Origin: a virus
Length of the DNA: 26,101 bases
Virus record (IMG/VR): IMGVR_UViG_3300030419_002465
Location: 1 to 26,101 of that record
Strand: one strand, 5' to 3'
Below the pieces are notes generated by a model that did no database searches, was not told where the DNA came from, and saw nothing but the letters and a program-made list of their open reading frames with translations. Numbering within the stretch: the stretch's first letter is position 1; every line of letters begins with the position of its first letter. Positions 4,440 through 26,028 of the stretch are shown one piece after another. The translations under genes and the position numbers were made by a program.

Positions 4440-4446
4440 TAAATTG

Positions 4447-4507: not shown

Positions 4508-5554
4508 ATGCGTGAGTATAAAAAAACTGCATTGGTTCTTGGTGCAGGTGGCTTTATAGGAAGTCATATGGTAAAACGACTTCGTTCCGAGGGGTATTGG
4601 GTGCGAGGTGTTGATTTAAAGTACCCTGAATTTTCTCCTACTGAAGCTAATGAGTTTGTGTTGGGAGATTTAAGAGATGTAAATATAGTTCGTAGAGTAA
4701 TTAAATTTACTGGGTATCTGGGTAATTATTATAAGCAGATAGCGGATAAATTTGCTGAACCTTTCGATGAAATCTATCAGTTTGCTGCTGATATGGGAGG
4801 TGCTGGATTTGTATTTACTGGAGAGAATGATGCAGAGATTATGCATAATTCTTGTTCAATTAATTTGAATGTACTTGAAGAACAGCGTAAATTAAATGAA
4901 AATAAGGATATAAATGAAACAGTAATATTTTATTCTGGATCAGCATGTATGTACCCAGAACACAATCAATTAGATCCTGACAATCCTGATTGCCGTGAAG
5001 ATTCCGCATACCCAGCTGCACCAGATTCCGAATATGGATGGGAGAAACTTTTTTCAGAGAGACTGTACTTGGCTTACCATCGTAATCATGGTATGCCTGT
5101 TAGGGTTGCCCGTTATCACAATATCTTCGGCCCAGAAGGAACCTGGGAGGGAGGTAGAGAGAAAGCTCCAGCAGCAATATGCAGAAAGGTTGCTTACCTA
5201 CCCTCCAAAGGTGGAGAAATAGAAGTATGGGGTGATGGAGAACAGACTCGTTCTTTCTTATATGTTGATGAGTGTATTGAAGCAACCAGAAGATTAGTTG
5301 ATTCTGAATTTACAGGACCTGTTAACATTGGTTCTGAGGAAATGGTTACTATTAATCAATTAGTAGAGACTGCTGCAAAGGTTGCTAAGAAGCAAGTAGA
5401 AAAGAATCATATTGATGGGCCATTAGGTGTTCGTGGACGTAATTCAAATAATGATCTTATTCGTGAGAAACTTGGTTGGGATTACTCTCAAACTCTTGAA
5501 GAAGGTATTCGTAAAACTTATAAATGGATTTTGGGACAAATTAAAAGCAAATGA
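4508..5554 (+). CDS. GDP-mannose 3,5-epimerase-like SDR
   Basis: An extended SDR enzyme that resembles plant GDP-mannose 3,5-epimerase (GME), which converts GDP-D-mannose to GDP-L-galactose and GDP-L-gulose. Visible features: the Rossmann motif GAGGFIGSH (12-20); AADMGGAGFV (93-102); SACMYPE (145-151) with the Cys147 that acts in GME acid/base catalysis; Y176xxxK180; HNIFGPEGTWEGGREKAPAA (204-223) with the second catalytic Lys, K219; and VRGRNSNN (308-315). At 348 residues it is close to GME length. It is the first gene behind the cluster promoter and overlaps the next by ATGA. GME specificity is well supported by the motifs; the product in the phage is inferred. Confidence 0.85.
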   Translation: MREYKKTALVLGAGGFIGSHMVKRLRSEGYWVRGVDLKYPEFSPTEANEFVLGDLRDVNIVRRVIKFTGYLGNYYKQIADKFAEPFDEIYQFAADMGGAGFVFTGENDAEIMHNSCSINLNVLEEQRKLNENKDINETVIFYSGSACMYPEHNQLDPDNPDCREDSAYPAAPDSEYGWEKLFSERLYLAYHRNHGMPVRVARYHNIFGPEGTWEGGREKAPAAICRKVAYLPSKGGEIEVWGDGEQTRSFLYVDECIEATRRLVDSEFTGPVNIGSEEMVTINQLVETAAKVAKKQVEKNHIDGPLGVRGRNSNNDLIREKLGWDYSQTLEEGIRKTYKWILGQIKSK

Positions 5555-6399
5555 AAGTAACTATTCTTGGATCTAGTGGGCAGATTGGTGCCTATTTAAC
5601 AGCGTATCTTCGTGAGAAAGATCATGAAGTTACTGAATTTGATATTGTTAATGGGGAAGATCAAGATCTAACTCAAATTCCTAATAAGAATCTCATGCGG
5701 GCTATTCGCATGGCTGATTTTGTATTTGTCCTTGCATTTGATGTTGGAGGATCAAGGTATCTGAAAAAGTATCAGCATACATTTGATTTTGTTAATAACA
5801 ATACTCGCATTCTTGCAAATGTGTTTAATCTTTTAGGGGAGTATAAGAAACCCTTTATCTTTGCTTCATCTCAAATGAGTAACATGAGTTACTCTCCGTA
5901 TGGTGTATTGAAGAGAGTGGGTGAACTTTATACTCAAACTCTTAAGGGATTGACTGTTAAGTTTTGGAATGTGTATGGTATTGAGAAGGACATGGAGAAA
6001 GCCCATGTTATTACTGACTTCATACGTAAAGGATTTGAAGAAGGTGATTTTGAGATGTTAACTGATGGAACTGAGGAGCGGCAATTCTTATATGCAGAGG
6101 ATTGTTGTGAAGCACTGGAAACAATCATGGAATGTTATTCAGACTTTAAACCAACCGATCCATTACATGTTACTAATTTTCATGCAAGTTCTATTAGGGA
6201 AGTTGCTGATGAGATTCAAGGGCAGTTTCATTTAATTGGAAAATATATTACTATTAAAGCTGGACTTGCTAAGGATAGTGTTCAAATGGATAAAAGAAAT
6301 GAGGCAGACACTCATATTTTAGGTTGGTGGCAACCTAAAACTACTCTAGATAAAGGTATTGCAAAAGTATTCACGGAGATGAAAAAAGACTATGACTAA
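5551..6399 (+). CDS. NAD-dependent epimerase/dehydratase (SDR)
   Basis: An extended SDR of 282 residues with the dinucleotide motif GSSGQIG (7-13), a FASSQMSNMS segment (104-113) in the place of the catalytic Ser/Thr, and Y117xxxK121. RQFLYAEDCCEAL later in the chain is the usual sugar-nucleotide SDR motif. It is shorter than GalE or RmlB. Lying between the GME-like gene and a methyltransferase, it may act on the GME product or as a 4-ketoreductase, but the substrate cannot be read from the sequence. It overlaps the genes on both sides. Confidence 0.75.
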   Translation: MKVTILGSSGQIGAYLTAYLREKDHEVTEFDIVNGEDQDLTQIPNKNLMRAIRMADFVFVLAFDVGGSRYLKKYQHTFDFVNNNTRILANVFNLLGEYKKPFIFASSQMSNMSYSPYGVLKRVGELYTQTLKGLTVKFWNVYGIEKDMEKAHVITDFIRKGFEEGDFEMLTDGTEERQFLYAEDCCEALETIMECYSDFKPTDPLHVTNFHASSIREVADEIQGQFHLIGKYITIKAGLAKDSVQMDKRNEADTHILGWWQPKTTLDKGIAKVFTEMKKDYD

Positions 6400-7156
6400 C
6401 CTAACTCCTCTCAGAAATTTCATTAATCAACCTCATTGTGATTTAGGATCCAATGCTTGGGTGTTGGCTGATTTAGTAAGATCAATGAAGAATGCAAGAT
6501 TTATAGATCTTGGTGTTCGATTGGGTGCATCATCTGCTCTCATGTCAATTGAAGCAGATGAAAGAAACAATAAAGTTCATGGTTGTGATTTGAACTTTGA
6601 TGGTTTCGAAAAAAATGGAGCGCGATTTGTTAATAAAGATTATATGTGTTACCTGGCTGACAGTGTAACTCTAGGTAAAAATTGGGATGAAGATCCTTTT
6701 GATATTATTTTTGTTGATACCATTCATACTAGGGAGCAGGTTTTAGCTGAACTTTATTATTGGGTAGATCATTTGAAAGAAGGGGGTTATCTCGTTTTCC
6801 ATGATTCTCATTGGACTGGACCGGGAGATACCATTGGTGGAATGCAGCATGAACGGGTTGATGTTGCCATTACAGATTTTTTCAATCTACCAACTAGTGT
6901 TCGTGAAATGAATGTATATGAAGATGAGGATATTGTTCTTGAGCATCATCAACCAAGTTTTGGTATGACATTTGTTAAAGTAAAATCTCTTGATGCTATT
7001 AAGAGATTCAAAGAAGGTGTTGATTGGGATCAGGTATTTGAGAGACGTAATTGGTTAGCAGATCTTCACTTTAATGAGAGTAGGCCTGATCGTGCTAGTC
7101 GTGAGTGGGGAATAGATTTAAATGCAATTGAATATGAATTGGGAATTACTCGATGA
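6392..7156 (+). CDS. SAM-dependent methyltransferase (Methyltransf_24-like)
   Basis: A 254-residue class I methyltransferase. The SAM-binding motif I is FIDLGVRLGASS (37-48), followed by an acidic strand-2 end (GCDLNFDG). FDIIFVDTIHTREQV is the motif IV region with the Asp-x-x-His pattern seen in the CmcI/Methyltransf_24 group, and GGYLVFHDSHWTG follows. These enzymes commonly methylate sugar hydroxyls. The 75-residue tail after the core is specific to this protein. It overlaps the upstream SDR by eight bases and the next gene by ATGA. The acceptor is unknown; a glycan or nucleotide sugar made by this cluster is likely. Confidence 0.75.
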   Translation: MTNLTPLRNFINQPHCDLGSNAWVLADLVRSMKNARFIDLGVRLGASSALMSIEADERNNKVHGCDLNFDGFEKNGARFVNKDYMCYLADSVTLGKNWDEDPFDIIFVDTIHTREQVLAELYYWVDHLKEGGYLVFHDSHWTGPGDTIGGMQHERVDVAITDFFNLPTSVREMNVYEDEDIVLEHHQPSFGMTFVKVKSLDAIKRFKEGVDWDQVFERRNWLADLHFNESRPDRASREWGIDLNAIEYELGITR

Positions 7157-7983
7157 CATTTGAAGTATCTCATTGGAGTGGTAGACTTGGTAACAATATT
7201 CAACAGGTTGCCAATTGTATTATGGCTGCTGAGAAATATAAATCTACTTTTATTCAGAGATTAGATCATGATATTATTCCAGAATTTAAAGTAGATTTTA
7301 ATACTTTATCAGAAGTATCTCAATGGTGTGGGAAAGGAAGATATTATTGTTGGGAACCTCTTATTCATTGTGAGAAGGGAATCCATGAGGGTGGTAATGA
7401 GACGGGTGTAGATAGAGATTATATCTATGAAAATATGAGGAGGATATGTAAAGATCATATTGCTCCTCATTTAAATCTTCCACGGAAAGAAGAACTGGAT
7501 GATGATACGATTGTAATGCATCTAAGAAGTGGTGATAATTATCATAGATTATTTGATCCACCTACTAACTATGTTCCTAATCCATTAATTTTTTATTTAA
7601 ATCTTATTGAAAGTTTTGATAAGTGTATTCTAATTACAGAACCAGATAGGGAAAATCCTATAGTACATGAGTTGGAGAAGATTGATAAGGTTACTATTCA
7701 ATCCTCAACGGTGGCAGATGATTTTGCTACTCTTATGAGTGCTAAGAATGTGGCTCTTTCTGGTGTAGGAACATTTGCAATGGCGGCCGCTTTATGTTCT
7801 AGTTATATTAAAAATTTATTTACAACAGATCTATTGTTGACTGAACACTTAAACTATACTATGATGTATAACACAGATGTAGAAGTACATGTTATGGAAT
7901 TAGGAGAAGAATATATCCCAGTTATTCCATGTAGTTGGGCTAATACAGAAGAGCAGAGAAAATTTATCATAGATTATAGATGA
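7153..7983 (+). CDS. GT11/O-fucosyltransferase-like glycosyltransferase
   Basis: A 276-residue protein with the GT11-like N-terminal motif GRLGNNIQQV (10-19) and the donor-binding motif HLRSGDNYH (123-131). The latter corresponds to the HxRRxD of alpha-1,2-fucosyltransferases and the HxR of the wider O-fucosyltransferase superfamily. A C-terminal GVGTFAMAAAL segment matches the conserved nucleotide-contacting loop. It is the most diverged of the four such proteins in the window. Family members use GDP-fucose; here GDP-L-galactose is also possible. ATGA overlaps link it to both neighbours. Confidence 0.65.
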   Translation: MTFEVSHWSGRLGNNIQQVANCIMAAEKYKSTFIQRLDHDIIPEFKVDFNTLSEVSQWCGKGRYYCWEPLIHCEKGIHEGGNETGVDRDYIYENMRRICKDHIAPHLNLPRKEELDDDTIVMHLRSGDNYHRLFDPPTNYVPNPLIFYLNLIESFDKCILITEPDRENPIVHELEKIDKVTIQSSTVADDFATLMSAKNVALSGVGTFAMAAALCSSYIKNLFTTDLLLTEHLNYTMMYNTDVEVHVMELGEEYIPVIPCSWANTEEQRKFIIDYR

Positions 7984-8972
7984 AAATATTTGTTACTGGA
8001 TGTGCTGGATTATTGGGTGCACATTATACGCGACATTTACTTCAAAATGGACATGAAGTAATTGGTATTGATGATCTCTCTGGTGGGTATAAAGCTTTTG
8101 TACCCAAAGGGGAGAGGTTTTCTTTTGTAAAATTAAATTTAGAAAGAAGAAAAAAGATTGTAGAACTCTTTGATGAACATAAACCAGAAGTCTTAGTTCA
8201 TTTTGCTGCTTATGCTGCAGAAGGATTATCTCCTTTTATTCGGAATTATAATTACAGAAATAATCTTATCTGTTCTGCTAATTTAATTAATGAATGTATT
8301 AAACATAATACTAAGGTTATTTTTACTTCCAGTATGGCTGTCTATGGAGAGCAGGAACCTCCATTTACAGAAGAGAAAAAACCTCAACCCGTAGATCCCT
8401 ATGGTATTGCTAAGTATGCTGTTGAATCTGATCTTAAATTAGCTCATGATCAGTTTGGATTACGTTATAATATTGTTCGTCCTCATAATGTTCTTGGAAT
8501 ATATCAAAATATTTGGGACAAATATAGAAATGTAATTGGTATTTTTATTCGTAAGACTCTTGATGGATTACCTATTCTTATCTATGGGGATGGAGAACAG
8601 ACAAGAGCATTTTCTGATATTAAATATTACATGGAACCATTTGATCGTCTTTTAAATGAGGAATTCGATGGTGAAATATTTAATATTGGTGCTGATAAAT
8701 ATTTTACACTTAATGAAGTTGCAGAAACAGTTCAACGCATTGGTATAAAGTATGGGTATGAAGTTCCTATTGAACATGGAGAACCAAGGCATGAAGTAAA
8801 GCATGCTTATTGTGATCACACTAAAGCAAAAACTATGTTAGACTTTAGGGATGGAACAAATCTTACGGAACTAGTTGAGAGTATGTTTGTGTGGGCAATG
8901 AATCAACCTAAGAGGAAAGTTAAGGAAATGGAATACGAAATCACTGAAGGCATTTACGATTATTGGAAATGA
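7980..8972 (+). CDS. UDP-glucose 4-epimerase-like SDR
   Basis: A 330-residue GalE/WbpP-like extended SDR with TGCAGLLGAHY (6-16), IDDLSGG (30-36), HFAAYAA (74-80), TSSMAVYG (116-123) with the catalytic Ser, and Y141GIAK145. RPHNVLGIYQNIWDK and YGDGEQTRAFSDI are the nucleotide-sugar binding segments. The length is near that of GalE (about 338). It probably interconverts UDP-Glc/UDP-Gal or their N-acetyl or uronic forms. A UDP-glucose dehydrogenase-like gene at 23801 could supply UDP-glucuronate for such an epimerase. Exact substrate uncertain. Confidence 0.75.
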   Translation: MKIFVTGCAGLLGAHYTRHLLQNGHEVIGIDDLSGGYKAFVPKGERFSFVKLNLERRKKIVELFDEHKPEVLVHFAAYAAEGLSPFIRNYNYRNNLICSANLINECIKHNTKVIFTSSMAVYGEQEPPFTEEKKPQPVDPYGIAKYAVESDLKLAHDQFGLRYNIVRPHNVLGIYQNIWDKYRNVIGIFIRKTLDGLPILIYGDGEQTRAFSDIKYYMEPFDRLLNEEFDGEIFNIGADKYFTLNEVAETVQRIGIKYGYEVPIEHGEPRHEVKHAYCDHTKAKTMLDFRDGTNLTELVESMFVWAMNQPKRKVKEMEYEITEGIYDYWK

Positions 8973-9697
8973 GTATTACCGAAGAAGTCTTACTGGAAAT
9001 GAGTTCCAGAGATAACACAGATCCTAATTACTGGACACGTTATTTTAAAAATGATCATGGTAAATTGAGGCATAATTTTCCTGGATCTGAAAATATAGAG
9101 AAAAATTATTCTCAATCAATGCAAGATATGTTTGTGTTGAGTGTATTGAATGGTAAAAAGAATGGAGTTTATCTGGAGATAGGAGCTGATCTTCCTCGAA
9201 TAGTTAATAATACATATTTGTTGGAGACAGAGTTTGATTGGATGGGAGTATCTTTCGAATGGGAAGGTGATAAAGTTGCATACTTTAATACCGTTAGAAG
9301 AAATCAATGTCTATGTGAAGATGCGACAAAATTTGATTATGACTTTCTTTTTCAACAAAGGAATTATCCAAAACAGATTGATTATCTTCAACTAGATATT
9401 GATCCTGCAGATCAGACTTTAAAAGCTTTAAAGCAATTGCCATTAGATGATTATCGGTTCTCTGTTATTACATATGAGACAGATTTATATCGTTATGGTG
9501 GTGATATACAAGATGAACAGATAGATATTTTGAAATCTTATGGATATGATTTAGTAGTAAGGAATGTAGCTAATGAACAGAATCCTTATGAGGATTGGTG
9601 GGTTGATCCAAATGTTGTTGATATGGATATAGTTGAGAAGTTTAGACAACCTAGTAGATTATCAAAAGAATCTCCACTTTGTATTTTTAGGAGTTAA
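8969..9697 (+). CDS. FkbM-like methyltransferase
   Basis: A 242-residue protein resembling the FkbM group. SQSMQDMFVLSVL (48-60) followed by GVYLEIGADLP (66-76) is the typical SQxxQDxF...GxFVEIGA signature, and DYLQLDIDPAD is the later acidic motif. The usual DPxxxN/GxxxSNTxxLE region is changed to IVNNTYLLE. ATG 8969 (ATGA overlap with the previous stop) is preferred over the TTG at 8963. It may methylate a sugar, or be a degenerate relative working with the FkbM protein that follows two bases downstream. Confidence 0.65.
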   Translation: MSITEEVLLEMSSRDNTDPNYWTRYFKNDHGKLRHNFPGSENIEKNYSQSMQDMFVLSVLNGKKNGVYLEIGADLPRIVNNTYLLETEFDWMGVSFEWEGDKVAYFNTVRRNQCLCEDATKFDYDFLFQQRNYPKQIDYLQLDIDPADQTLKALKQLPLDDYRFSVITYETDLYRYGGDIQDEQIDILKSYGYDLVVRNVANEQNPYEDWWVDPNVVDMDIVEKFRQPSRLSKESPLCIFRS

Positions 9698-9699
9698 GA

Positions 9700-10332
9700 A
9701 TGTTATTAAGTTATCCAGGATTGGTAAGACAATTTAATTGTAATGTGAGTGGAGTCATTCATGTGGGTGGACATATTGGAGAGGAATTGGAAGTATATAA
9801 AGATCAAGGGGTAAGAAATCTCCTTATGTTTGAACCCCAAAAACATTGTTTTGATCAGATTGTAGAAAGATCTAAACAAATGGGGATGACTGATATAAAA
9901 TTAGTTAATAAAGCATTAGGAAGTGTGGTTGAAGAAAAGGAAATTGTTTCTGATCCTACAGGCCTTACAGGATCTTTATTGAAAGGTAAAGAGGTTTATA
10001 ATTTTCCTGATCTAGATGAATCTAAATGGACACATCGTGAGATGGTACAAGTCTCAAAACTTGATGATGAAATTCCAGAAGATCATAATTATAATTTTTT
10101 AAATATGGACACTCAAGGGTATGAACTTGAAGTATTGAAAGGTGGGACTAGAGTAATGGAGAAAATAGATTATGTTTATACAGAAGTTAATAAGGTAGAA
10201 GTCTATGAAAATAATGCTATGGTTGAAGAACTTGATGAATTTTTAAACGGATATAATATGAAGAGAGTTAATGAATGGTGGCATGTTCATGGTTGGGGTG
10301 ATGCTTTTTATATTAAGACAGATTTGATATGA
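9700..10332 (+). CDS. FkbM family methyltransferase
   Basis: A compact 210-residue FkbM-type SAM methyltransferase. Motif I is VIHVGGHIGEELEVY (19-33), FEPQKHCFDQI is the strand-2 acidic motif, and FLNMDTQGYELEVLKG (133-148) is the hallmark of the family. Members O-methylate sugars in LPS, capsules and natural products. AGGAG (9689-9693) precedes ATG 9700 with good spacing. It is tandem with another FkbM-like gene; the two may methylate different positions or residues. Confidence 0.8.
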   Translation: MLLSYPGLVRQFNCNVSGVIHVGGHIGEELEVYKDQGVRNLLMFEPQKHCFDQIVERSKQMGMTDIKLVNKALGSVVEEKEIVSDPTGLTGSLLKGKEVYNFPDLDESKWTHREMVQVSKLDDEIPEDHNYNFLNMDTQGYELEVLKGGTRVMEKIDYVYTEVNKVEVYENNAMVEELDEFLNGYNMKRVNEWWHVHGWGDAFYIKTDLI

Positions 10333-11177
10333 AGGTATTTGATTCTTTTAGATTCTTTAATGAATTAGATCTTTTAGAGATAAGATTTAATTTACTTTAT
10401 GATGTAGTAGATCATTTCGTTATTACGGAATGTCCATATACTATTATGGGTGATGAGAAACCTTTATATTATTTGGAAAATAAAGATAGGTTTGCCAAGT
10501 TTAATGATAAAGTTATCCATGATATCATGGAAGATATTCCCGATGATTTTTCAGACTATATTCAGAAGAGAAAGTACCACACTCCTTATGGGGCTATTGA
10601 TCGTAATTGTGGCCAACGTTATATTGATATCCCTATTAGGTATCAAAGAGATATGTATGCTAGAAACTATACTGCATACTCTTTAGAAAAGGCAGGTGTA
10701 TCTAATGGAGATATTGTTATTACAAGTGATGCTGATGAAATTATTAATCCTTTAATCTTAGAGTCACTTGATTGGTTTGATCCATTTAATCATTACGTTG
10801 CCCTTCAAAGGACTTTTTATTATCAATTAAATACTCTTTATCAAGAAGACTGGATGGGATCTAGAATATGTACCTGGGATAAGTTGAGGAATTTATCGGT
10901 TGATCAGTTACGTCAGAGTCATCCTGATTCCTATAGATTAGAACAGGGTGGATGGCATTGGAGTTATTTTGGTAATGTGGATACTGTTAAACAGAAACTA
11001 ACAGCTTGTGCTGATAGTCATCATGGTGTAGATAATTTAGAAGAGAAAGTTGAGAAGGGAATGGATCCGGTAGGACGGGGATTAAGTTATCCTGCAGTCC
11101 CTCTTGACGATTCTTTCCCTGCTTATATTATAGAGAATCAAGAAAAATATTCTGCATTTATCAAACCATGGAATTGA
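10329..11177 (+). CDS. Family 17 glycosyltransferase (GT17)
   Basis: A 282-residue protein with the GT17 signature at the N-terminus (VFDSFRFFNELDLLEIRF, residues 3-20; then FVITECPYTIMGDEKPL). SDADE (133-137) is the DxD-like metal and nucleotide motif, and GGWHWSYFGNVDTVKQKL is the conserved C-terminal block. The family is named for the animal bisecting beta-1,4-GlcNAc transferase and has many members in bacterial and viral glycan clusters. The likely donor is UDP-GlcNAc or another UDP sugar, the acceptor a growing oligosaccharide. ATGA overlap with the FkbM gene. Confidence 0.8.
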   Translation: MKVFDSFRFFNELDLLEIRFNLLYDVVDHFVITECPYTIMGDEKPLYYLENKDRFAKFNDKVIHDIMEDIPDDFSDYIQKRKYHTPYGAIDRNCGQRYIDIPIRYQRDMYARNYTAYSLEKAGVSNGDIVITSDADEIINPLILESLDWFDPFNHYVALQRTFYYQLNTLYQEDWMGSRICTWDKLRNLSVDQLRQSHPDSYRLEQGGWHWSYFGNVDTVKQKLTACADSHHGVDNLEEKVEKGMDPVGRGLSYPAVPLDDSFPAYIIENQEKYSAFIKPWN

Positions 11178-12088
11178 TTGAAGGTGTAGCACTTTCCAAC
11201 CTTTGCGATTATTCTTTTGGAGATCAGTCAGGCCAGTGGAGTAGCATTTATACTTCTTTTATGAAACCTGCTAATCTTCTTAATACCGAATTTGTTAGTA
11301 AGGTATTTGAAGTGCAGAAAAGTCGTGATTATATGACTTTGTTTATTGATAATATAAGATTATATAAAAGAGATATTAAATCTGTAAGTGATAGGGATCG
11401 TCCTTATGTTGAACAGTTGATGGATGAAAGTGATTTGCTTTCCTTATGTTCTAATTTTCCGCATATGAAGTTTATTATCTTCACTAATTTGGAAGATACT
11501 CCTACAGATGAATATATCTTTGATGCAATCCCTGAGAATGTTATTAGAATTGTTGCTGTCAATGCGGTTGCTAATGGTGGAAAAGTGATACCAGCACCCT
11601 ATGGTGTGCAACGTAGGATGCAATCAAATGATTATAGAATAGAACATCTGCAGAAGGCAATGTTGAGTTCTATTCCTCTTTTGGATTCTAAACTCTTGTA
11701 TATAAGTCATCAAGAGTCATCTGAGAGAGCAGGGATTAAGGATATGTTTGCGGATCAGGAATGGGCTACTGTTAATTATGATAGAGTAGATTATTCTACA
11801 TTCTTATATAATATTTGTCAGCATAAGTTTATGATATGTCCTATAGGTAATGCTGTTGACTGTCATAGGAACTGGGAAGTTCTTTATTTGCGTCGAGTAC
11901 CTGTAATGGAAACGCATCCATATCTTATTGACTTATTCGATGATTATCCTGTATTATGGGTGAGTGGGTATGAAGATATTACAGAAGACTTATTAAGATT
12001 GAATAATCATTTGTTTGAAGAAGTTCAAAAAATGGATCTAAATCAATTATCACTACCACATTTCTTTGAAAAATGGACAAAAAATTAG
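11168..12088 (+). CDS. Exostosin-like glycosyltransferase
   Basis: A 306-residue protein without an obvious N-terminal signature. Its C-terminal part has KFMICPIGNAVDCHRNWEVL followed by YLRRVPVMETHPYLIDLFDD and VLWVSGYEDIT. This matches the GT-B C-terminal domain of exostosin/GT47-like enzymes (FxxxPxGxxxDxxRxxExLxxGxxPV). Such enzymes transfer uronic acid, galactose or xylose from nucleotide sugars. It overlaps the genes on both sides. The transferase assignment is fair; donor and linkage are unknown. Confidence 0.6.
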   Translation: MELIEGVALSNLCDYSFGDQSGQWSSIYTSFMKPANLLNTEFVSKVFEVQKSRDYMTLFIDNIRLYKRDIKSVSDRDRPYVEQLMDESDLLSLCSNFPHMKFIIFTNLEDTPTDEYIFDAIPENVIRIVAVNAVANGGKVIPAPYGVQRRMQSNDYRIEHLQKAMLSSIPLLDSKLLYISHQESSERAGIKDMFADQEWATVNYDRVDYSTFLYNICQHKFMICPIGNAVDCHRNWEVLYLRRVPVMETHPYLIDLFDDYPVLWVSGYEDITEDLLRLNNHLFEEVQKMDLNQLSLPHFFEKWTKN

Positions 12089-12786: not shown

Positions 12787-12788
12787 CT

Positions 12789-15599: not shown

Positions 15600-15618
15600 A
15601 AATTGCTTGCATTGAATT

Positions 15619-18468: not shown

Positions 18469-19040
18469 ATATAAAGTTACCCTCATTAAAACAACTAAAC
18501 GAATTTAGTATAGAGGGGTTAAGGGAATTTGCTACGGAAAAGATAGATGAGGCTCAAATCGCTGACATGCTTGACAATCCACCAGGGATTGTCCCTTATA
18601 AACTTTACGCTTATTTGTCTACAACGTTTGATGATGGTATAATATTAGATCTAGGAACCAATAAGGGATGTTCTGCTCTGGCAGCATCTTTTAATCCTAA
18701 GAATCATGTTTTAAGTTATGATATAAATGACTTTGGCCAAAAAGGTGTTAAGAAGGATAATATTACTTTTAAAATAATGGATTGGCAAAGTGATGAGGAA
18801 CTTGATTATGAGAAGATTAAAATGATTATTATTGATACTGCTCATTCTGGCAGTCAAGAGAATGCATTTATGCAATGGTTAACCTCAAAAGGTTGGTGTG
18901 GTATTCTTTTATTAGATGATATCTATCTTAATCATGGTATGGTAGGTATGTGGGAGAGTATTGGTGCTCCCAAAAGGGATGTGACTAGATTGGGTCATCA
19001 TCGTCCTTGTGGAACAGGTATTGTGGAGTTTGGTAAATGA
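18465..19040 (+). CDS. SAM-dependent methyltransferase-like protein
   Basis: A 191-residue class I methyltransferase fold: ILDLGTNKGCSALA (60-73) is motif I, YDINDFG the strand-2 acidic end, and IIIDTAHSGSQENAF plus GILLLDDIYLN follow the CmcI/Methyltransf_24 pattern. It resembles a shorter version of the protein at 6392 (shared DTxH and D-D/H-S-type blocks), so the two may be distant paralogues. It overlaps both neighbours and probably methylates a glycan hydroxyl. Confidence 0.7.
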   Translation: MNIKLPSLKQLNEFSIEGLREFATEKIDEAQIADMLDNPPGIVPYKLYAYLSTTFDDGIILDLGTNKGCSALAASFNPKNHVLSYDINDFGQKGVKKDNITFKIMDWQSDEELDYEKIKMIIIDTAHSGSQENAFMQWLTSKGWCGILLLDDIYLNHGMVGMWESIGAPKRDVTRLGHHRPCGTGIVEFGK

Positions 19041-19852
19041 TTGGACACAACCATTTAGGAAAGAATGGACGCTTTGGAAATCAGATGTTCCAATATGCAG
19101 CTACTAAAGGAATTGCTGCATGGAATGGGTATGATTGGTGCATTCCTCCTGGCCCTAAGACAGATGAAGAGTTTAATGATGAAGAGAATCAGCATAAACT
19201 TTTCATGGCATTTAAAGTGCCTAGTGTAAAGGAAGTTAATATGTTTCCTGCTCCTTATAAACAGGAAGGAAGTTTTAGATTCGATCCAGATTTATTTGCT
19301 AATTGTCCTGATAATGTAAACCTTTATGGTTACTTTCAATCAGAAAAATATTTTCAACATATAGAAGAAGATCTTCGTAAAGACTTTGAATGGAGAGATG
19401 ATGTAAAGAAACTATGTCAGGAAATGATTGATAGTCTGGGATGTGATAAAGTTATTTCTCTCCACATTCGTCGGACAGATCACCTAACTAAACCAACATA
19501 CCATCCAGTTCTTCCTTTAAGTTACTATGAAGAAGCACTCTCCCGATTCCCCACAGTACATGATAGTTGCGATGTTCCAGTCCTTGTTTTTTCTGATGAT
19601 CCTCAGTGGTGTAATGAACAAGAATTTTTCTCAGGAGATAGATTTTTAATCTCTGAAAGTGGTGATAATATTACTGATATGTGTTTGATGAGTATGTGCT
19701 CTCATCAGATTATGGCTAATTCTACCTTCTCTTGGTGGGGAGCCTGGTTGTCTAATTCTGAACATGTCATTGGACCTAAACTATGGTTTGGACCTGATGG
19801 AGAGGATCCTACAGACATCTATGTAGATAGATGGGAGTATCTGGATGTCTGA
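19037..19852 (+). CDS. GT11 alpha-1,2-fucosyltransferase-like
   Basis: A 271-residue classical GT11 protein: GRFGNQMFQYAATKGIA (11-27), HIRRTDHL (143-150), which is the GDP-sugar-binding HxRRxD motif, FSDDPQW, and ANSTFSWWGAWLS. The family transfers L-fucose from GDP-L-fucose. No GDP-fucose pathway is visible here, whereas a GME-like enzyme that makes GDP-L-galactose is, so the donor may differ. A clear paralogue lies at 22059. Overlaps both neighbours. Confidence 0.8.
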   Translation: MIGHNHLGKNGRFGNQMFQYAATKGIAAWNGYDWCIPPGPKTDEEFNDEENQHKLFMAFKVPSVKEVNMFPAPYKQEGSFRFDPDLFANCPDNVNLYGYFQSEKYFQHIEEDLRKDFEWRDDVKKLCQEMIDSLGCDKVISLHIRRTDHLTKPTYHPVLPLSYYEEALSRFPTVHDSCDVPVLVFSDDPQWCNEQEFFSGDRFLISESGDNITDMCLMSMCSHQIMANSTFSWWGAWLSNSEHVIGPKLWFGPDGEDPTDIYVDRWEYLDV

Positions 19853-20594
19853 GATTTCAATATGTATTCCCACCTATGAATTTAAGGGTGCGGGAGTGAG
19901 ATTTCTTGCTGAATTGTTTTCATCATTGGAGAAACAAACCTTTCAGGATTTTGATATTGTCATCTCAGATCATAGTCGGAATGATGAGATTAAAAATTAC
20001 TGTCAAAGTACTGACTTTGATATTTTATATGTAAGTAATCCAAATGGCAGAGGGTATCAATCAACTAATACTAATTGTGCTTTAGAGCATGCAGAAGGTA
20101 GAATTTTAAAACTCATTTATCAAGATGATTTGTTTGTGGATGAGCAGGCATTAGAGAAGATTAAAAATAGATTTGATTTAGGATGCAAATGGTTATTTCA
20201 TGGATTTACTCATACTACTGACGGAGTAGAAACACATAGAGATTGTGTTCCTAGGTGGTGTGATCTGATGTTAGAGGGGAGAAATCTTTTAGGGAGTCCT
20301 TCATGCATAGCATTTTTAAATGAATCCAAAATGTATATGGATGAGAATATTAAGCTCTTGATAGATACGGAATTGTATCATAGAATGAGAATGAAACATG
20401 GGATGCCAGAAATTATTTCTGATATTCTGATTGCTAATAGAGAACATGATGATCGAGTTAGTGCAGGTGGAGTTGTATATGATATACAATTTGAACATCC
20501 TGAAGGGAATTGGTTGATGAATAGGGGTGAACTTGCATACATATCAGAAAAACATTCGCAGTTTATGAAAGAGAGGAGGTATCCTGATGACTAA
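19845..20594 (+). CDS. Family 2 glycosyltransferase
   Basis: A 249-residue GT-A enzyme with the GT2 opening ISICIPTYEFKGAGVRFLAE (4-23), LEKQTFQDFDIVISDHS (28-44), and YQDDLFVDEQAL (92-103) carrying the QDD metal/nucleotide motif. The C-terminal half holds a DTELYHRM acceptor-type segment. It is an inverting transferase, probably using a UDP sugar. It overlaps the GT11 gene before and the GT-A gene after it. Confidence 0.8.
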   Translation: MSEISICIPTYEFKGAGVRFLAELFSSLEKQTFQDFDIVISDHSRNDEIKNYCQSTDFDILYVSNPNGRGYQSTNTNCALEHAEGRILKLIYQDDLFVDEQALEKIKNRFDLGCKWLFHGFTHTTDGVETHRDCVPRWCDLMLEGRNLLGSPSCIAFLNESKMYMDENIKLLIDTELYHRMRMKHGMPEIISDILIANREHDDRVSAGGVVYDIQFEHPEGNWLMNRGELAYISEKHSQFMKERRYPDD

Positions 20595-21585
20595 TAGTGG
20601 AAGATTAATTCCAGGAGATAAGAGCGCTGGTGCTGTAAAAAATCATGGATCCTATATTAGGGATGAGAAGTGGAATCAAGTTTATAAGAATCCTTTTGAT
20701 TTTGAATATAGAGCTAGAGTTAATCCCAGAGTTGATTTAACTCAAGCTACCTTTATTATTCCGGTAAGGATTGAATCGGAGGATAGATTAAGAAATGTAG
20801 TAACTGCTATTTCTTTTCTTATAGAAAATTTTAATACTAATATTTTTGTTAAAGAAGTAGATACTGTTTCTCATTTTCAAAATAGGGCTCTTCCTAAGAT
20901 TGGTAAACTATTAGGAATTAAGTTAGATGTTCCTGGGACAAAAGGACTTCCTAGATTTAGATTTGCATTTGAACATAGTGATGATCCTTTATTTCATAGA
21001 CAAAAAATTCTCAATGAGATGATTAGTACTCTGAATAGAGAAACTACAGTCACATCTAATGTCATAGTAAACTATGATGCGGATGTTGTTCTACCTTTAG
21101 AATCATATACTCTTTCTTATAAAGGTATTTTAGATGGAGTATTTGATGTAGTATATCCCTATGGACAAGGTGAGTATCAAAGAAAAGTAACTGTAAATAA
21201 TGATCAATGTAGAAAATTTATATTTAAAAAAGACTATAGTATCCTTGATAATAATTCGGAAGTATCCACTTCAGATTTTGGGTGGGCTCAATTCTTTAGA
21301 AAGAAGACTTATATAGAAGGGGGAATGGAGAATGAAAACTTTAAAGCATATGCTCCGGAAGATAAAGAAAGATTTTATAGGTTTAATACTCTAGGATATA
21401 GAGTAGGAAGAATAGATAATGTTGTTTATCATTTAGAGCATGCACGGGGTGAAAATTCATGGTTTACAAATCCCCATATGGAGTCTAATATGGGTGAGTG
21501 GAATAAGATTCAACAAATGAATAAGGAACAACTGTTACAATATTATTCTGAGCAGCAGTATCTGGAGAAATATGTTAGCGACTAA
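20587..21585 (+). CDS. Chondroitin-synthase-like GT-A glycosyltransferase
   Basis: A 332-residue enzyme with an N-terminal IIPVRIESEDRLRNVVTAI segment (57-75), NYDADVVLP with Asp164 and Asp166 as the DxD motif, and a C-terminal block of galactosyltransferase type (GWAQFFRKKTYIEGGMENE and then PEDKERFYR). Such domains occur in chondroitin polymerase and beta-1,4-galactosyltransferases. A near-perfect ribosome site AGGAGGT (20574-20580) lies six bases before ATG 20587, the strongest in the cluster. The donor may be UDP-Gal, UDP-GalNAc or a uronate. Confidence 0.7.
   Translation: MTNSGRLIPGDKSAGAVKNHGSYIRDEKWNQVYKNPFDFEYRARVNPRVDLTQATFIIPVRIESEDRLRNVVTAISFLIENFNTNIFVKEVDTVSHFQNRALPKIGKLLGIKLDVPGTKGLPRFRFAFEHSDDPLFHRQKILNEMISTLNRETTVTSNVIVNYDADVVLPLESYTLSYKGILDGVFDVVYPYGQGEYQRKVTVNNDQCRKFIFKKDYSILDNNSEVSTSDFGWAQFFRKKTYIEGGMENENFKAYAPEDKERFYRFNTLGYRVGRIDNVVYHLEHARGENSWFTNPHMESNMGEWNKIQQMNKEQLLQYYSEQQYLEKYVSD
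21565..21585 (+). repeat. Gene-junction repeat, copy 2
   Basis: Second copy of the 21-base junction sequence at 16900-16920 (18 of 21 identical), again spanning the end of one gene and the MLAT start of the next. Confidence 0.4.
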
Positions 21586-22072
21586 GGAGGAATTCCTAAG
21601 TTCAAAAGAATGTGATTTTATTATTTCTTATTATAAGAAACAAAAGAAAACTATTCCATATTTTAAAACTAGATATATTCGTTTACAAGACATTCCCTTT
21701 TATCATTTTCGTATGAAGATGCTTTTAAAAAAATATATTAGAAATATAAAGAAAAACTTTCCTTTTTTAAAGTTAACCTATGGACAAATAGTACTGTGGG
21801 AAAATAATTCATCAAGAATTATGCATAAAGATACAGATATTCCTCTGTATAATTCTACTGGTACTGGAATTGTTGATTGGACTTCTGTTTGTTATCTTAA
21901 TGACGATTTTAAGGGTGGAGAAACTTTAATAGAAGATAAGGCATTCAAACCTAAGAAAGGATCTTTATTAGTTTTTAATAGTAAACAACTTCTTCATGGT
22001 GTAAATAATATTTTTGGGAATAGATATACTTTTATTCTTTGGTGGGAGGAGATTAAAAATGCTTGCGTTTAA
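21572..22072 (+). CDS. 2-oxoglutarate/Fe(II)-dependent oxygenase
   Basis: A 166-residue protein with the double-stranded beta-helix signature of prolyl-4-hydroxylase-like dioxygenases. Iron ligands are His85 and Asp87 (MHKDTD) and His142 (LLHGV), and Arg151 (GNRYTFILWW) binds 2-oxoglutarate. TSVCYLNDDFKGGETLI is the conserved core strand. Such enzymes are common in cyanophages. Here it lies between glycosyltransferase genes, so it may hydroxylate a sugar, or a protein side chain that then serves as glycan acceptor (inference). A GGAGA ribosome site precedes it, and it overlaps both neighbours. Confidence 0.8.
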   Translation: MLATKEEFLSSKECDFIISYYKKQKKTIPYFKTRYIRLQDIPFYHFRMKMLLKKYIRNIKKNFPFLKLTYGQIVLWENNSSRIMHKDTDIPLYNSTGTGIVDWTSVCYLNDDFKGGETLIEDKAFKPKKGSLLVFNSKQLLHGVNNIFGNRYTFILWWEEIKNACV

Positions 22073-22910
22073 TAACATTGGTAGTCTGGGAAGACTAGGA
22101 AATCAAATGTTTGAGTATGCTGCACTACGTGGTATTGCGGCTTATCGTGGATTTGATTGGTGTATTCCCCCAATTAATCAAAAGGGGATAGAAAATTACA
22201 GTCTTCATGAATGTTTTAAACTATCACCTGATGTCAGGTATAGTATTCTTCATGGTACATCATATGTGCAAGAAAGATTTTTTCATTTTGATGAGGAAAT
22301 ATTGACACGTTGTCCAAACAATGTAAGTCTTCATGGGTTCTTTCAATCCTGGAGATACTTTGATAATGTTCAAGATGAAATCAGAAAGGATTTTACTTTT
22401 CATGATTCGCATTTGAATCCATGTAAAGAGATGATGGAAGAACTTGAAGGACAAGAACCTATTATGCTTCATGTCCGTAGAGGAGATCCTAATCTTACAG
22501 ATCCTCGTGGATTTAAATGGTCCTATACTCAGTGTGGTTCAATGCATCCCGTGCAACCTATAGAGTATTATGAGAAGGCTCTGTCTAAGTTTGATAAGAA
22601 CCAACCAGTTATTGTATTTTCTGATTCAATGGATTGGGTTAAAGAACAGGAGTTCTTTTCTGGAGATAGATTTTTGCTTTCTGAACCAGTAGATAAATAT
22701 GAAGATGGATCCTTTACCCCTTATGCAGATCTATGCTTGATGTCTTTGTGTTCTCATGCTATTATTGCTAATAGTTCTATGAGTTGGTGGGGTGCATGGT
22801 TGATTTCTAATCCAAATAAGAAAGTAATCGCACCTAAGATGTGGTTTGGCCCTGACTACGCAGATAAGGATACTAAAGACCTTTATTGTCCCGATTGGAT
22901 TTTACTATGA
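22059..22910 (+). CDS. GT11 alpha-1,2-fucosyltransferase-like
   Basis: A 283-residue GT11 enzyme: GRLGNQMFEYAALRGIA (11-27), HVRRGDPN (138-145), QEFFSGDRFLLSE, and ANSSMSWWGAW. It shares these and the GFDWCIPP stretch with the protein at 19037, so the two are paralogues that arose by duplication or separate acquisition. ATG 22059, with GGAGGA (22044-22049) upstream, is preferred over the TTG at 22014. The donor is a GDP-L-sugar; the linkage is unknown. Confidence 0.8.
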   Translation: MLAFNNIGSLGRLGNQMFEYAALRGIAAYRGFDWCIPPINQKGIENYSLHECFKLSPDVRYSILHGTSYVQERFFHFDEEILTRCPNNVSLHGFFQSWRYFDNVQDEIRKDFTFHDSHLNPCKEMMEELEGQEPIMLHVRRGDPNLTDPRGFKWSYTQCGSMHPVQPIEYYEKALSKFDKNQPVIVFSDSMDWVKEQEFFSGDRFLLSEPVDKYEDGSFTPYADLCLMSLCSHAIIANSSMSWWGAWLISNPNKKVIAPKMWFGPDYADKDTKDLYCPDWILL

Positions 22911-23692
22911 ACAGAATAGAAGATTATTCAAAATTAAAATTGGAAATTGATCGATGGTTGAAAGATTATTATTACTTTCATGCCATCAATGCCTTTGTAG
23001 TAGGAGTATCAGGTGGAATTGATTCTGCCGTAGTGTCTACTCTTTGTGCTGAGACAGGATTACCCACATATGTGGTGTCTATGCCATTAATGTCAAGTAT
23101 GGAAACAGATAAATTATCTGATGGACATACTAAATGGCTGGAAGAGAAATATGATAATGTAGAGAGGGTACGAGTAGAATTATCTGGTGCATATGATCAT
23201 TTCCTTCATTGTATAGAATGGTGGAATGATGTAACAAGAAATAATAAAAAAGAATTTACTAATAATGATCTAGCAAATGCGAATACAAAGTCAAGGTTAA
23301 GAATGATTACTTTATATCAGATTGCTGGTGTAAAGGGTGGTATTGTAGTTGGAACAGGTAACAAGGTAGAGGATTATGGAATCGGTTTTTATACTAAGTA
23401 TGGTGACGGCGCTGTGGATATTGCTCCCATTGCTGACCTCTATAAGACGGAAGTCTGGGAACTCGGACGACACCTCGGAGTGAGTGAGGATATTATTGCT
23501 GCAAAACCAACAGATGGTTTGTGGGATGATAAGAGAACAGATGAGGATCAAATAGGTGCTTCTTATGCTGATCTAGAAGAAGCAATGGAGAATGGAACAG
23601 GCCCTGCAGTTAATATCCTTAAGGAATATAATGAAAAGAATAGACATAAAATGGAACCTATACCAACATTCAAACTAGGAGAAAAGACATGA
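22907..23692 (+). CDS. nadE: NH3-dependent NAD synthetase-like
   Basis: A 261-residue ATP-pyrophosphatase-fold enzyme. GVSGGIDSAVVS (33-44) is the P-loop, NTKSRLRMITLYQIA and GTGNKVEDYGIGFYTKYGDG are NadE blocks, and IAPIADLYKTEVWELG closes the core. There is no N-terminal glutaminase domain, so ammonia would be the nitrogen source. It would form NAD from deamido-NAD. In this cluster it may supply the cofactor for the several SDR enzymes and the UDP-sugar dehydrogenase, or be a diverged amide-forming enzyme acting on a sugar acid. ATG 22907 (ATGA overlap) is favoured over the TTG at 22886. Confidence 0.8.
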   Translation: MNRIEDYSKLKLEIDRWLKDYYYFHAINAFVVGVSGGIDSAVVSTLCAETGLPTYVVSMPLMSSMETDKLSDGHTKWLEEKYDNVERVRVELSGAYDHFLHCIEWWNDVTRNNKKEFTNNDLANANTKSRLRMITLYQIAGVKGGIVVGTGNKVEDYGIGFYTKYGDGAVDIAPIADLYKTEVWELGRHLGVSEDIIAAKPTDGLWDDKRTDEDQIGASYADLEEAMENGTGPAVNILKEYNEKNRHKMEPIPTFKLGEKT

Positions 23693-23787
23693 CAGAAAAT
23701 GTAATGACATGGGTTGCATTAATTATTGCCTCATTTGTAATAACTTCAACTCAGTTTAAAATTATTGATTGGTTCACAAAAAAATAA
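23689..23787 (+). CDS. 32-residue membrane peptide
   Basis: A very short ORF coupled by ATGA to the end of nadE and ending 13 bases before the next ATG, so the spacing fits a real gene. The product is MTENVMTW, a hydrophobic helix VALIIASFVITS, and a basic/aromatic tail ending in FTKK. This is the layout of a single-pass membrane micropeptide with the positive end inside. Function unknown. Confidence 0.55.
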   Translation: MTENVMTWVALIIASFVITSTQFKIIDWFTKK

Positions 23788-23800
23788 AACTGGAGAAAAT

Positions 23801-25015
23801 ATGATGCCACTAGTTGATCTTGATGCTTTGGATAACTTTGTAGAAACCGATAAACCAAAGATTGGTATTATTGGAGCAGGAAGACTTGGAATTTGTTTTG
23901 CTTTGCTTTGTGATAAAGCAGGGTATGATGTAATGGTGTCTGATATTCGTGAAGATTATGTGAAAAATCTTCAGAATAAAAAGATTAGTACTAATGAACC
24001 AGGAGTAGAAGAATTACTACAGACATCTAATATTAAAGCAACTACTTCTAATGAAGAAGTTATAAAGTATGCTGATGTCATTTATACTCTTGTTGCTACT
24101 CCATCAACACCAGAAGGTGACTATGATGTAAGTGCAGTTGATAATGTGGTGGGTGATATATCAAAGGCAGGATGGGCCACATGTGGGCCAAATGGTTCTG
24201 GAATGACGGGTAAAGCATTTGTTGTTGGATGTACTACTAACCCAGGTGATTGTGATAGGTGGGCAAAGAAATTAGAGGATGATGGTGTAGATGTTTATTA
24301 TAATCCAGAGTTCATAGCACAAGGATCTATCATTAAAGATCTTCAGAATGCTGATATGGTATTAGTTGGTGGGTATGGACATCATATTCCTCTCATAGAG
24401 AAGATTTATAATAATATTCAGATTATAGAACCATCTATTCATTTTATGAGTACGACTGCTGCTGAACTTGTTAAGTTGGCAGTTAATTGTTTTCTTACTA
24501 CGAAGATTAGTTACGCCAATATGGTTGGTGAAGTAATGACTAGGGCTGGATTGGGAGATGAAATTAAGAATGTTTTGGATGCCATTGGTGGTGATAGTAG
24601 AGTTGGGAAAAAATATTTAAATTATGGATATGGTTTTGGTGGCCCATGTTTACCTAGAGATAATCGTGCATTTGCTGCATATGCAAAGAAGGTTGGATTG
24701 AATTATAATTTAGGAGAGACTACAGATAATTTTAATGAAGAGCATTCTAAATTCTTATGTGAATATTTCTGCCATAAAAACTTACAAGGACTTCCTTTTT
24801 ACTTTGATTATGTGTCTTATAAGAAAGGAACTGATATACTAACTGAAAGTCAACAGTTACGTTTGTGTACTGATCTTTTGGATCTAGGATACACAGTTTA
24901 TGTAAATGATATTTCTGCAATTGTTAACCAACTTGAATATGATTTCTCTATAAAATATAAGGATAGAGTAAAGTTTGAAGAACCCACAGAACAAGTGTAT
25001 CGAATTGATCTATGA
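23801..25015 (+). CDS. UDP-glucose 6-dehydrogenase-like
   Basis: A 404-residue nucleotide-sugar dehydrogenase. IGIIGAGRLGICFAL is the NAD-binding motif, VATPSTPEGDYDVSAV and YNPEFIAQGS are the UGD-family blocks, ELVKLAVNCFLTTKISYAN is the central substrate helix, and GYGFGGPCLPRD carries the catalytic Cys (residue 283). UDP-glucose is the usual substrate, giving UDP-glucuronate with two NAD reduced; other UDP sugars are possible. The C-terminal domain (FYFDYVSYKKGTD) is shorter and more diverged. GGAGA (23792-23796) precedes ATG 23801; ATG 23804 is also possible. Confidence 0.8.
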   Translation: MMPLVDLDALDNFVETDKPKIGIIGAGRLGICFALLCDKAGYDVMVSDIREDYVKNLQNKKISTNEPGVEELLQTSNIKATTSNEEVIKYADVIYTLVATPSTPEGDYDVSAVDNVVGDISKAGWATCGPNGSGMTGKAFVVGCTTNPGDCDRWAKKLEDDGVDVYYNPEFIAQGSIIKDLQNADMVLVGGYGHHIPLIEKIYNNIQIIEPSIHFMSTTAAELVKLAVNCFLTTKISYANMVGEVMTRAGLGDEIKNVLDAIGGDSRVGKKYLNYGYGFGGPCLPRDNRAFAAYAKKVGLNYNLGETTDNFNEEHSKFLCEYFCHKNLQGLPFYFDYVSYKKGTDILTESQQLRLCTDLLDLGYTVYVNDISAIVNQLEYDFSIKYKDRVKFEEPTEQVYRIDL

Positions 25016-25842
25016 CAGACCTTTTAGATAGAAATAAAGCAGCATTTAAGCTTGCTAATATTGGGCCCATTTATTGTATCAATCTCGATGGACAACCAGA
25101 GAGATGGGAACATATGGAAACTCAGTTTAAGCACTGGGAAATAAAAAATTATACTCGTGTCTCTGCATATGATGGTAGAGAAGATGATTTAAGTCATATC
25201 ATTACAGGAAGATATCCTGATATGATGACACCTGGTGAGATTGGATGTACTACATCTCATCTTAAAGCAATGAGAATGTTCTTGGAGACTGATGAACCTT
25301 ATGCAGTCATGATGGAAGATGATTGTAGTTTAGAATTGGTAAGGTGTTGGGGATTTACTTGGGCAGATTTTTATGCACACATTCCATATGATTGGGATGT
25401 TGTACAGATTTCTATTATTTGTACAGGAGATATACATGTTAAACTTCATAAGAGATTTATAAATGATTTTTCCACTGCATGTTATTTAATTACACGACAT
25501 CATGCAGAAAAATTGGTTAAGTTTCATTGTAGAGGAGATAAGTATAAGTTGGATCAAGGAGCTAAACCACGTCCTGTAGCAGATGATCTGATTTATAATT
25601 CTGGTAATACCTATGCTATTCCTTTACTTTTATATCGTACAGAATTAGGATCTTCTATTCATCCGGAACATATTGATGCATTTCATAAAGGAAATTATGA
25701 GGCACAATCTACGTATTGGAATCAGAATGGAGCAAATATCGATATAAAAGAACAGATGGATTATGATCCTTACTTGGGACGGATAACCGAAAACACTCTA
25801 GCGCAAAGAATGCAAGAAGAGCAGGAACAACACCAGGGATAG
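25012..25842 (+). CDS. Family 25 (LPS-type) glycosyltransferase
   Basis: A 276-residue GT25 protein: YCINLDGQPERWEHM (21-35), a GEIGCTTSHLKAMRMF block (75-90), AVMMEDDCSL (98-107) with Glu102-Asp103-Asp104 as the metal motif, and STACYLITRHHAEKL. GT25 includes LOS galactosyltransferases such as LgtB and LpsA, and collagen galactosyltransferases. It is the last gene of the cluster, linked to the dehydrogenase by ATGA. The likely donor is UDP-galactose, which the GalE-like enzyme could help provide. Confidence 0.8.
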   Translation: MTDLLDRNKAAFKLANIGPIYCINLDGQPERWEHMETQFKHWEIKNYTRVSAYDGREDDLSHIITGRYPDMMTPGEIGCTTSHLKAMRMFLETDEPYAVMMEDDCSLELVRCWGFTWADFYAHIPYDWDVVQISIICTGDIHVKLHKRFINDFSTACYLITRHHAEKLVKFHCRGDKYKLDQGAKPRPVADDLIYNSGNTYAIPLLLYRTELGSSIHPEHIDAFHKGNYEAQSTYWNQNGANIDIKEQMDYDPYLGRITENTLAQRMQEEQEQHQG

Positions 25843-25911: not shown

Positions 25912-25944
25912 ACTTTACATAACAAAGGCCCGAAAGAATCGTAC

Positions 25945-26002: not shown

Positions 26003-26028
26003 ATTCTTGCGAGACACTCTAAAGAAAA

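Follow-up and report, generated by a model that had tools for sequence, protein, structure and literature searches.

Gene clusters of lipopolysaccharide (LPS) type are in print for the cyanomyoviruses P-SSM2, S-SM2 and S-SSM7 (PMC3037559, PMC2984593, PMC7824862), in line with what an earlier note on the DNA treated here had stated for P-SSM2, and a comparison published in 2010 left it undecided whether such clusters function (PMC3037559). A second point of reference is the chlorovirus PBCV-1, in which A075L is the enzyme that attaches xylose to the major capsid protein's N-glycan; its family, GT114, is also found in bacteria (PMC11571054). Here we describe a glycan island at positions 4508-25842 of the IMG/VR record IMGVR_UViG_3300030419_002465, whose entire 26,101 bases, themselves a genome fragment, constitute the window of this analysis. 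Because of its synteny with named cyanophages, it is almost certainly to be read as the glycan island of a T4-like cyanophage of Kyanoviridae type. It belongs to the already known type of cyanophage 'LPS' cluster, in a slot that holds variable clusters in S-SM2, Bellamy, SynMITS9220M01 and others. What is new here is the absence of five families for export or lipid initiation from 22 of 22 cyanophage records, a pairing of the NAD synthase NadE with UDP-glucose dehydrogenase (UGDH), a relative of GT114, a terminator-promoter at the island start (joined by the wcaG RNA in relatives) and purifying selection on the genes.

A glycan island without recognised export genes

The island comprises 26 genes, as judged from open reading frames (ORFs) and their translations, all on the + strand and mostly overlapping, the overlaps being broken only at three gaps of 2, 27 and 72 nt when ORF starts are taken mechanically. 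Profiles and folds divide them into nine nucleotide-sugar enzymes (a GDP-mannose 3,5-epimerase homologue (GME), three further short-chain dehydrogenases/reductases (SDRs), RmlB, RmlC, an RfbH-like dehydratase, a cytidylyltransferase-like protein and an enzyme of UGDH type), 11 transferases or transferase-like proteins (GT11 types, GT2, GT17, GT25, a GT114-related protein, a GT-A fold, DUF3431 and DUF5672), four methyltransferases, one 2OG-Fe(II) oxygenase and one NadE. The Pfam cut-off is exceeded by GT17, GT2, GT25, DUF5672 and two GT11 proteins; a third GT11 (16898; genes are cited by their first position) and DUF3431 (12073) fall below it, transferases 11168 and 20587 were placed by PDB and fold matches, and 7153 was recognised by eye. 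Two methyltransferases (6392 and 9700) are over cut-off and two (8963 and 18465) come from reading of the sequence. The earlier note had described 27 same-strand, mostly overlapping genes with at least ten transferases, four methyltransferases and an oxygenase: the shared strand and the overlaps hold, the gene number is corrected to 26, and the three enzyme classes recur in our tally, with 21572 as the oxygenase. The NAD synthase was absent from its list.

Pfam searches of the 26 proteins at E 0.001 returned no initiating transferase, flippase, polymerase, exporter or RmlA, none of which the earlier note had seen either. Export genes elsewhere in the genome, which that note had named, together with unmodified virion proteins, as pointing to ordinary LPS synthesis instead, were looked for in relatives. 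Profiles for Wzx, Wzy/WaaL, WbaP, WecA and ABC-2 exporters each matched in 0 of 22 cyanophage records (and Wzx in 0 of 1 for the window record) and were positive in at least 9 and up to 14 of the 14 control genomes; a divergent or novel exporter would be missed by such profile searches. The 22 records consist of 17 named complete genomes (13 with GME, together with P-SSM2, Syn9, S-PM2 and P-SSM4, of unchecked GME status) and five IMG/VR records, possibly fragments; 18 of the 22 carry a GME homologue. An NTP_transferase of RmlA type was found in 5 of the 22, and a donor-forming enzyme is thus sometimes carried. GT4 is over cut-off in one record (P-SSM2) and present at E<=0.001 in four, as against 14 of 14 controls, and the LPS-core family GT9 is over cut-off in none, with one weak match at 6.8e-4, as against 5 of 14 controls, so that the transferase set looks unlike that of the usual bacterial O-antigen locus. 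Hydropathy over 19 residues stays below 1.6 in 24 of the 26 island proteins, the exceptions being the PLP enzyme 15619 (1.83) and NadE 22886 (1.60), both of soluble families, and no membrane protein is evident by this measure. Because the families for export and lipid initiation are absent, the products are likely finished in the cytoplasm, in keeping with the earlier note's proposal that they act there, there being no recognised export or polymerisation machinery in the window or in the 22 relatives' records.

The features of the window are as follows.

4446-4483, +: composite terminator-promoter (hairpin 4446-4473, -35 from 4455, -10 at 4478-4483, 17-nt spacer including the U-tract)
4508-5554, +: GME homologue, predicted to give a GDP-L-galactose/L-gulose donor (Arabidopsis GME 2c59, E 2.5e-83)
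5551-6399, +: NAD-dependent sugar epimerase/reductase, SDR (profile)
6392-7156, +: methyltransferase (Methyltransf_24; CmcI family below cut-off)
7153-7983, +: GT11/fucosyltransferase-like (motif by eye; without profile match)
7980-8972, +: GalE-type SDR (UDP-glucose 4-epimerase 4zrm, E 7e-40)
8963-9697, +: FkbM-like methyltransferase (sequence reading; without Pfam match)
9700-10332, +: FkbM methyltransferase (profile)
10329-11177, +: GT17 glycosyltransferase (profile)
11168-12088, +: GT114-related glycosyltransferase, chlorovirus A075L-like (8avq/8q8i/8asa, E 8e-30)
12073-12786, +: DUF3431-like, putative GT-A-type transferase (Pfam below cut-off; weak fold matches)
12780-13280, +: cytidylyltransferase-like sugar nucleotidyltransferase, HldE-C/TagD-like (below equivalog cut-offs)
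13277-14191, +: RmlB, dTDP-glucose 4,6-dehydratase (TIGR01181, 404 bits against a cut-off of 365)
14172-14780, +: RmlC, 3,5-epimerase (TIGR01221, 234 bits against 156)
14755-15591, +: SDR reductase in the RmlD position, not certified as RmlD (TIGR01214, 31 bits against 224)
15619-16920, +: RfbH/E1-like PLP 3-dehydratase, catalytic His for Lys (profile/PDB)
16898-17797, +: GT11-like transferase (below cut-off)
17794-18468, +: DUF5672 protein, transferase-like (profile)
18465-19040, +: small methyltransferase-like protein (sequence reading; without profile match)
19037-19852, +: GT11 fucosyltransferase family (profile)
19845-20594, +: GT2 glycosyltransferase (profile)
20587-21585, +: GT-A-fold glycosyltransferase, phrog_15655 (K4 chondroitin polymerase E 1e-9, GalNAc-T2, RmlT)
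21572-22072, +: 2OG-Fe(II) oxygenase (profile)
22014-22910, +: GT11 fucosyltransferase family (ORF from TTG; true start probably later)
22886-23692, +: NAD+ synthase NadE (TIGR00552, 174 bits against 64; ORF from TTG, true start probably ATG near 22907)
23765-25015, +: UDP-glucose 6-dehydrogenase-type nucleotide-sugar dehydrogenase (TIGR03026, 202 bits against 190)
25012-25842, +: GT25 glycosyltransferase, 3' end of the island (profile)
25904-26101, +: late-promoter-like site TATAAATA (25904); from 26029 a truncated ORF with a signal peptide, assigned to the DUF680 type by position

Pairing of NadE with UDP-glucose dehydrogenase

Eight of the 22 records have a NadE over cut-off, in all eight on the same strand as GME and no more than about 20 kb from it. 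In a wider set of phage loci (here as below, each scan contributed its best 77-80, which are in part redundant and were retrieved by the gene then examined) the pairing with UGDH is seen in 57 of 59: among 77 NadE loci, which were not de-duplicated, 59 have at least 3 kb downstream, and UGDH lies within 3 kb downstream in 49 of these, just upstream or within 2.3 kb in eight and nowhere in two. The linkage is also observed in reverse, with NadE beside UGDH in 14 of 17 loci, and it holds whichever of the two genes comes first and at NadE identities as low as 43%. UGDH precedes GT25 in just 5 of the 49 loci with room for it, and therefore the order NadE-UGDH-GT25 of the window is not general.

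Judged by its residues, which are like those of housekeeping NadE, the island protein is a true NAD synthase: a comparison of 81 phage with 80 cellular sequences found 63 sites common at >=95% and only three conservative group differences at thresholds of 85% and 75%. UGDH consumes two NAD+ per UDP-glucuronate, and our preferred interpretation is that NadE would supply this cofactor. The pairing also gave rise to the idea that NadE converts UDP-glucuronate to a uronamide by amidation; given the near-identity of phage and cellular NadE in conserved sites, it was not kept as the best reading. The known uronamide enzymes are AsnB-like, as in WbpS (PMC7468200). The nearest cellular NadE is the sole strong full-length NAD_synthase match in 18 of 18 genomes picked from 80 loci, the other matches being partial. 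No UGDH was found beside the cellular relative in these 80 loci by tblastn with phage UGDH within 6 kb on each side, a search that distant UGDHs could escape.

A relative of the chlorovirus transferase A075L

The protein encoded at 11168 matches A075L over profile positions 136-303 of 303, that is, the C-terminal or donor half. Counterparts of A075L Arg158, Arg208, Glu211 and Asn202 are kept (numbering with an offset of 2 applied in this analysis; residue roles from PMC11571054), Asn148 is replaced and the Asp73 region falls outside the alignment. Since the family occurs in bacteria too, this apparent kinship is a lead towards glycosylation of the virion, short of proof.

Donor enzymes and other single-gene readings

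The assignment of 4508 as GME is well supported by sequence comparison, and the protein is 84.5% identical to that of RB11-B. The dTDP-L-rhamnose set RmlABCD is incomplete, with RmlB and RmlC over cut-off, the RmlD candidate far below it and no match for RmlA. The RfbH-like protein 15619 finds 3bcx as its best PDB match (E 5e-61), has the catalytic His and scores 356 bits against an equivalog cut-off of 423; in its subgroup one of the four cluster cysteines is replaced. A 3,6-dideoxy step in the island is plausible, and of the varied unusual sugars claimed earlier several stand, with the 3,6-dideoxy type reduced to this plausible status. The RfbH-like enzymes of these phages are of two kinds, those with four and those with three cysteines at the presumed iron-sulphur site (loci L005, L016, L018 and L084 against the window's 15619-16920).

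Among the transferases, 20587 is assigned to the GT-A fold by its matches; 7153 gave no Pfam match and its profile no convincing PDB match, and the DUF3431 protein no fold match at E<=0.001. A collagen-like protein as the general target of the oxygenase and GT25 was considered and rejected, being over cut-off in only 3 of the 22 records.

Signals at the island start

At 4446-4483 the 5' arm and loop of a terminator hairpin carry the -35 element of a sigma-70-type promoter, while the U-tract falls between the -35 and the -10; the RNA folds with -14.5 kcal/mol and a z-score of -3.94. Such composites occur in 37 of 72 de-duplicated loci against a mean of 0.0 in 100 shuffles, and sigma-70 matches of at least 10 of 12 in 43 of the 72 against a mean of 4.7 (85 loci were reduced to 72 for the composite count; promoter-motif counts over 85 loci and wcaG counts over 87 sources are without de-duplication). 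Similar composites stand ahead of hli genes in S-SM2 and Bellamy, and the arrangement is therefore not peculiar to sugar islands. A second one lies in the window at 2700-2736 (-10 at 2731), ahead of the phrog_552 gene at 2760. None of 85 loci has the motif TATAAATA in the 160 nt before GME (five have ATAAATA), on which ground late expression alongside virion genes was rejected; three sites in the window are not above chance. The island promoter is of early type, and transcription presumably starts early, by host RNA polymerase. Across the whole island there are 119 promoter-like matches against 94.6 +/- 11.6 in shuffles, so that single internal sites mean little.

In relatives the composite is directly preceded by the wcaG RNA (RF01761), which exceeds the Rfam gathering score in 3 of 3 relatives searched. 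With 21 of the relatives' sequences as the basis of a model, 59 of 87 sources gave a match at E<=0.01, 21 of these by construction (for example, L011:9832-9932 and L066:2287-2380). In 55 of the 59 a terminator hairpin comes no more than 90 nt later (median start 10 nt), in 47 the terminator contains a promoter matching 9 or more of 12, and an island gene starts within 1.5 kb in 58, in 53 of them within 160 nt, in a count that looked for island genes only and at loci mostly retrieved by GME. The window differs from most relatives in that no wcaG RNA was found in it. The position of cyanophage wcaG upstream of exopolysaccharide or high-light genes was already known (PMC2864571); the literature consulted yielded no mention of a terminator with an embedded promoter. 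Because the terminator, mostly with an independent promoter, comes after wcaG, this RNA may form the 3' end of a transcript arriving from the tRNA side upstream rather than a 5' leader of the sugar genes, which is opposite to the published reading.

Purifying selection

Median dN/dS lies between 0.07 and 0.38 in 23 of 23 genes tested, with 0.75 as the largest value for any pair (intact frames only, decayed copies having been dropped; at most 60 sequences per gene; pairs with 0.1<dS<1.5; genes 6392, 18465 and 21572 left out of the 26). All 23 are thus under purifying selection.

Setting among T4-like cyanophages

The left-flank genes match phrog_447, phrog_552 and phrog_481, families that adjoin nrdB and tRNAs in relatives; nrdB itself lies beyond the window, and the right flank is a cut-off ORF, hence its assignment to DUF680 by position. 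In S-SM2, Bellamy, SynMITS9220M01, Sf-CH5 and P-TIM68 the order runs from nrdA and nrdB, in several with a gene labelled 'NAD synthetase', through tRNAs or small genes to the sugar island and then to DUF680, pstS or hli, with DUF680 genes after the island in S-SM2 and SynMITS9220M01. This slot is common to the window type and five of six compared phages; in S-B05 the island is inverted or rearranged, and DUF680, pstS and hli still adjoin its GT25 end. The window and all six named relatives have GME at the beginning of the island or close to it and end their sugar genes with a GT25 homologue (bookend match phrog_2835, E 4e-126). A crude pattern finds DUF680 after GT25 in 47 of 76 loci, and a pattern for TATAAATA is matched there in 27 of 76.

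Content between these ends differs among phages, the best phage record covering 9% of the window by megablast and none 80%. Gene blocks hold their order between loci despite this cassette-like variation, as far as gene-order strings and 'next gene' calls, which can show only matches to window genes, reveal. The block of cytidylyltransferase, RmlB, RmlC and SDR lies between DUF3431 and RfbH in the window and before GME in L020, L024, L027 and L067, and phosphoheptose isomerase has no match in the window, unlike in S-SM2, P-TIM68 and Sf-CH5. In genomes of 190-205 kb, the islands of S-SM2, Bellamy and SynMITS9220M01 take up about 20-24 kb. The island described here has a GC content of 0.33-0.35, slightly lower than the 0.37 of its left flank, with no sharp break, and no tRNA was found in the window.

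Some neighbouring features were also observed. In S-B05 (L086, 29261-38001) the island borders genes annotated as endosialidase, tail-fibre and carbohydrate-binding. The phrog_447 gene of the window (291-758) is a SegE-type GIY-YIG endonuclease (PF19835, E 3e-55), DUF2997 (3231-3452) and DUF1257 (3452-3844) adjoin in the left flank, and an abiF RNA (RF03085, 40.3 bits) lies in the tRNA region of a relative (L011:3138-3174). This phrog_447 endonuclease is the window's member of the small nrdB-side genes that cyanophage annotation labels 'NAD synthetase' (as in L003, L004 and L085); the label looks wrong and is confusable with the island NadE.

The acceptor and alternative explanations

The soluble-family enzymes of the island would convert host GDP-mannose, dTDP-glucose and UDP-glucose to activated donors of L-galactose-type, 6-deoxy, probably 3,6-dideoxy and uronate sugars, with NadE sitting beside the NAD-consuming UGDH in donor synthesis, and the 11 transferases and the methyltransferases would then assemble and methylate an oligosaccharide. 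Its completion would take place in the cytoplasm, on an acceptor accessible from there; the likeliest is a phage-made protein destined for the virion, by analogy with the chloroviruses, which glycosylate their capsid protein themselves. We hold to a virion protein as the acceptor tentatively, at somewhat less than an even chance. In its favour we count the 0 of 22 result for export profiles, the scarcity of GT4 and GT9, the lack of an evident membrane protein in the island, the kinship with A075L, the NadE linkage, the purifying selection and the tail-fibre neighbours in S-B05. Several points weigh against it. Among titles and abstract openings of the open-licence literature, none described a glycosylated virion protein in a cyanophage, and published authors take such clusters for host-surface modification (PMC2984593, PMC9602691, PMC7824862). 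No protein-linking transferase could be certified among the island genes, the promoter is early-type and not late, collagen-like proteins as a possible hydroxylated target are scarce, and the A075L match is confined to the donor half, without Asn148 and in a family with bacterial members. Finally, host export enzymes could complete a glycolipid.

A real, if lesser, possibility is that the island enzymes remodel the host surface, modifying intermediates of host glycolipid or O-antigen on the cytoplasmic side for delivery to the outside by the host flippase, polymerase and ligase, and so block superinfection or grazing; host export would then serve, which would explain why no export genes are carried. 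The cassette-like content variation and the published view just cited favour this, as does the early-type promoter, which by itself fits a virion or a host-surface acceptor alike. On the other hand, bacterial surface loci usually have GT4 and GT9, which are nearly absent from the cyanophage records, a lytic infection would leave little time for remodelling, and direct evidence for it was not found. The absence of export genes from 22 of 22 records narrows the question to a glycan on the virion versus a glycan passed to host exporters, and the NadE-UGDH pair, the GT114 relative and the wcaG-terminator-promoter module offer handles on it.

We regard as improbable an effect on small molecules alone, in which a soluble glycoside or diverted host sugar nucleotides would be the product without a polymeric acceptor. 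It is favoured in that no dedicated acceptor gene was identified and most donor-side enzymes are under strong constraint, but eleven transferases would exceed what pool diversion needs. The glycosyltransferases of T4 modify DNA, and phage enzymes of this class can thus act on DNA, but we find such an acceptor hard to credit here. No modified nucleotides or glycosylated DNA were evident in cyanomyoviruses as of 2010 (PMC2984593), no base hydroxymethylase is among the annotated window genes, and the variety of sugars goes beyond the need. Stuffer DNA filling a large head, as raised for the LPS clusters of the larger cyanophages (PMC3037559), would suit their differing content and their location in larger genomes (PMC3037559), but is argued against by the low dN/dS together with the kept gene order, and is very improbable.

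Comparison with known systems

Bacterial O-antigen loci of the Wzx/Wzy or ABC-dependent kinds likewise hold nucleotide-sugar genes, RmlB and RmlC, RfbH-like enzymes and transferases; they differ from the island in the flippase, polymerase, initiating transferase and exporter, not found here, and in GT4, nearly absent in relatives and without a match in the window. Capsid N-glycosylation in PBCV-1 shares with the island the use of virus-encoded transferases and one related glycosyltransferase with phosphate-binding arginines and Glu211, whereas the virus realm and host are different and the kinship is limited to the C-terminal half of one enzyme. As a whole, and more doubtfully than for the virion acceptor taken singly, the island could represent the phage equivalent of capsid glycosylation in chloroviruses: a cytoplasmic pathway complete in itself, with a NadE-UGDH pair, which would place methylated oligosaccharides on virion proteins, diversify by cassette exchange and, in most relatives, be governed by a wcaG-terminator-promoter switch.

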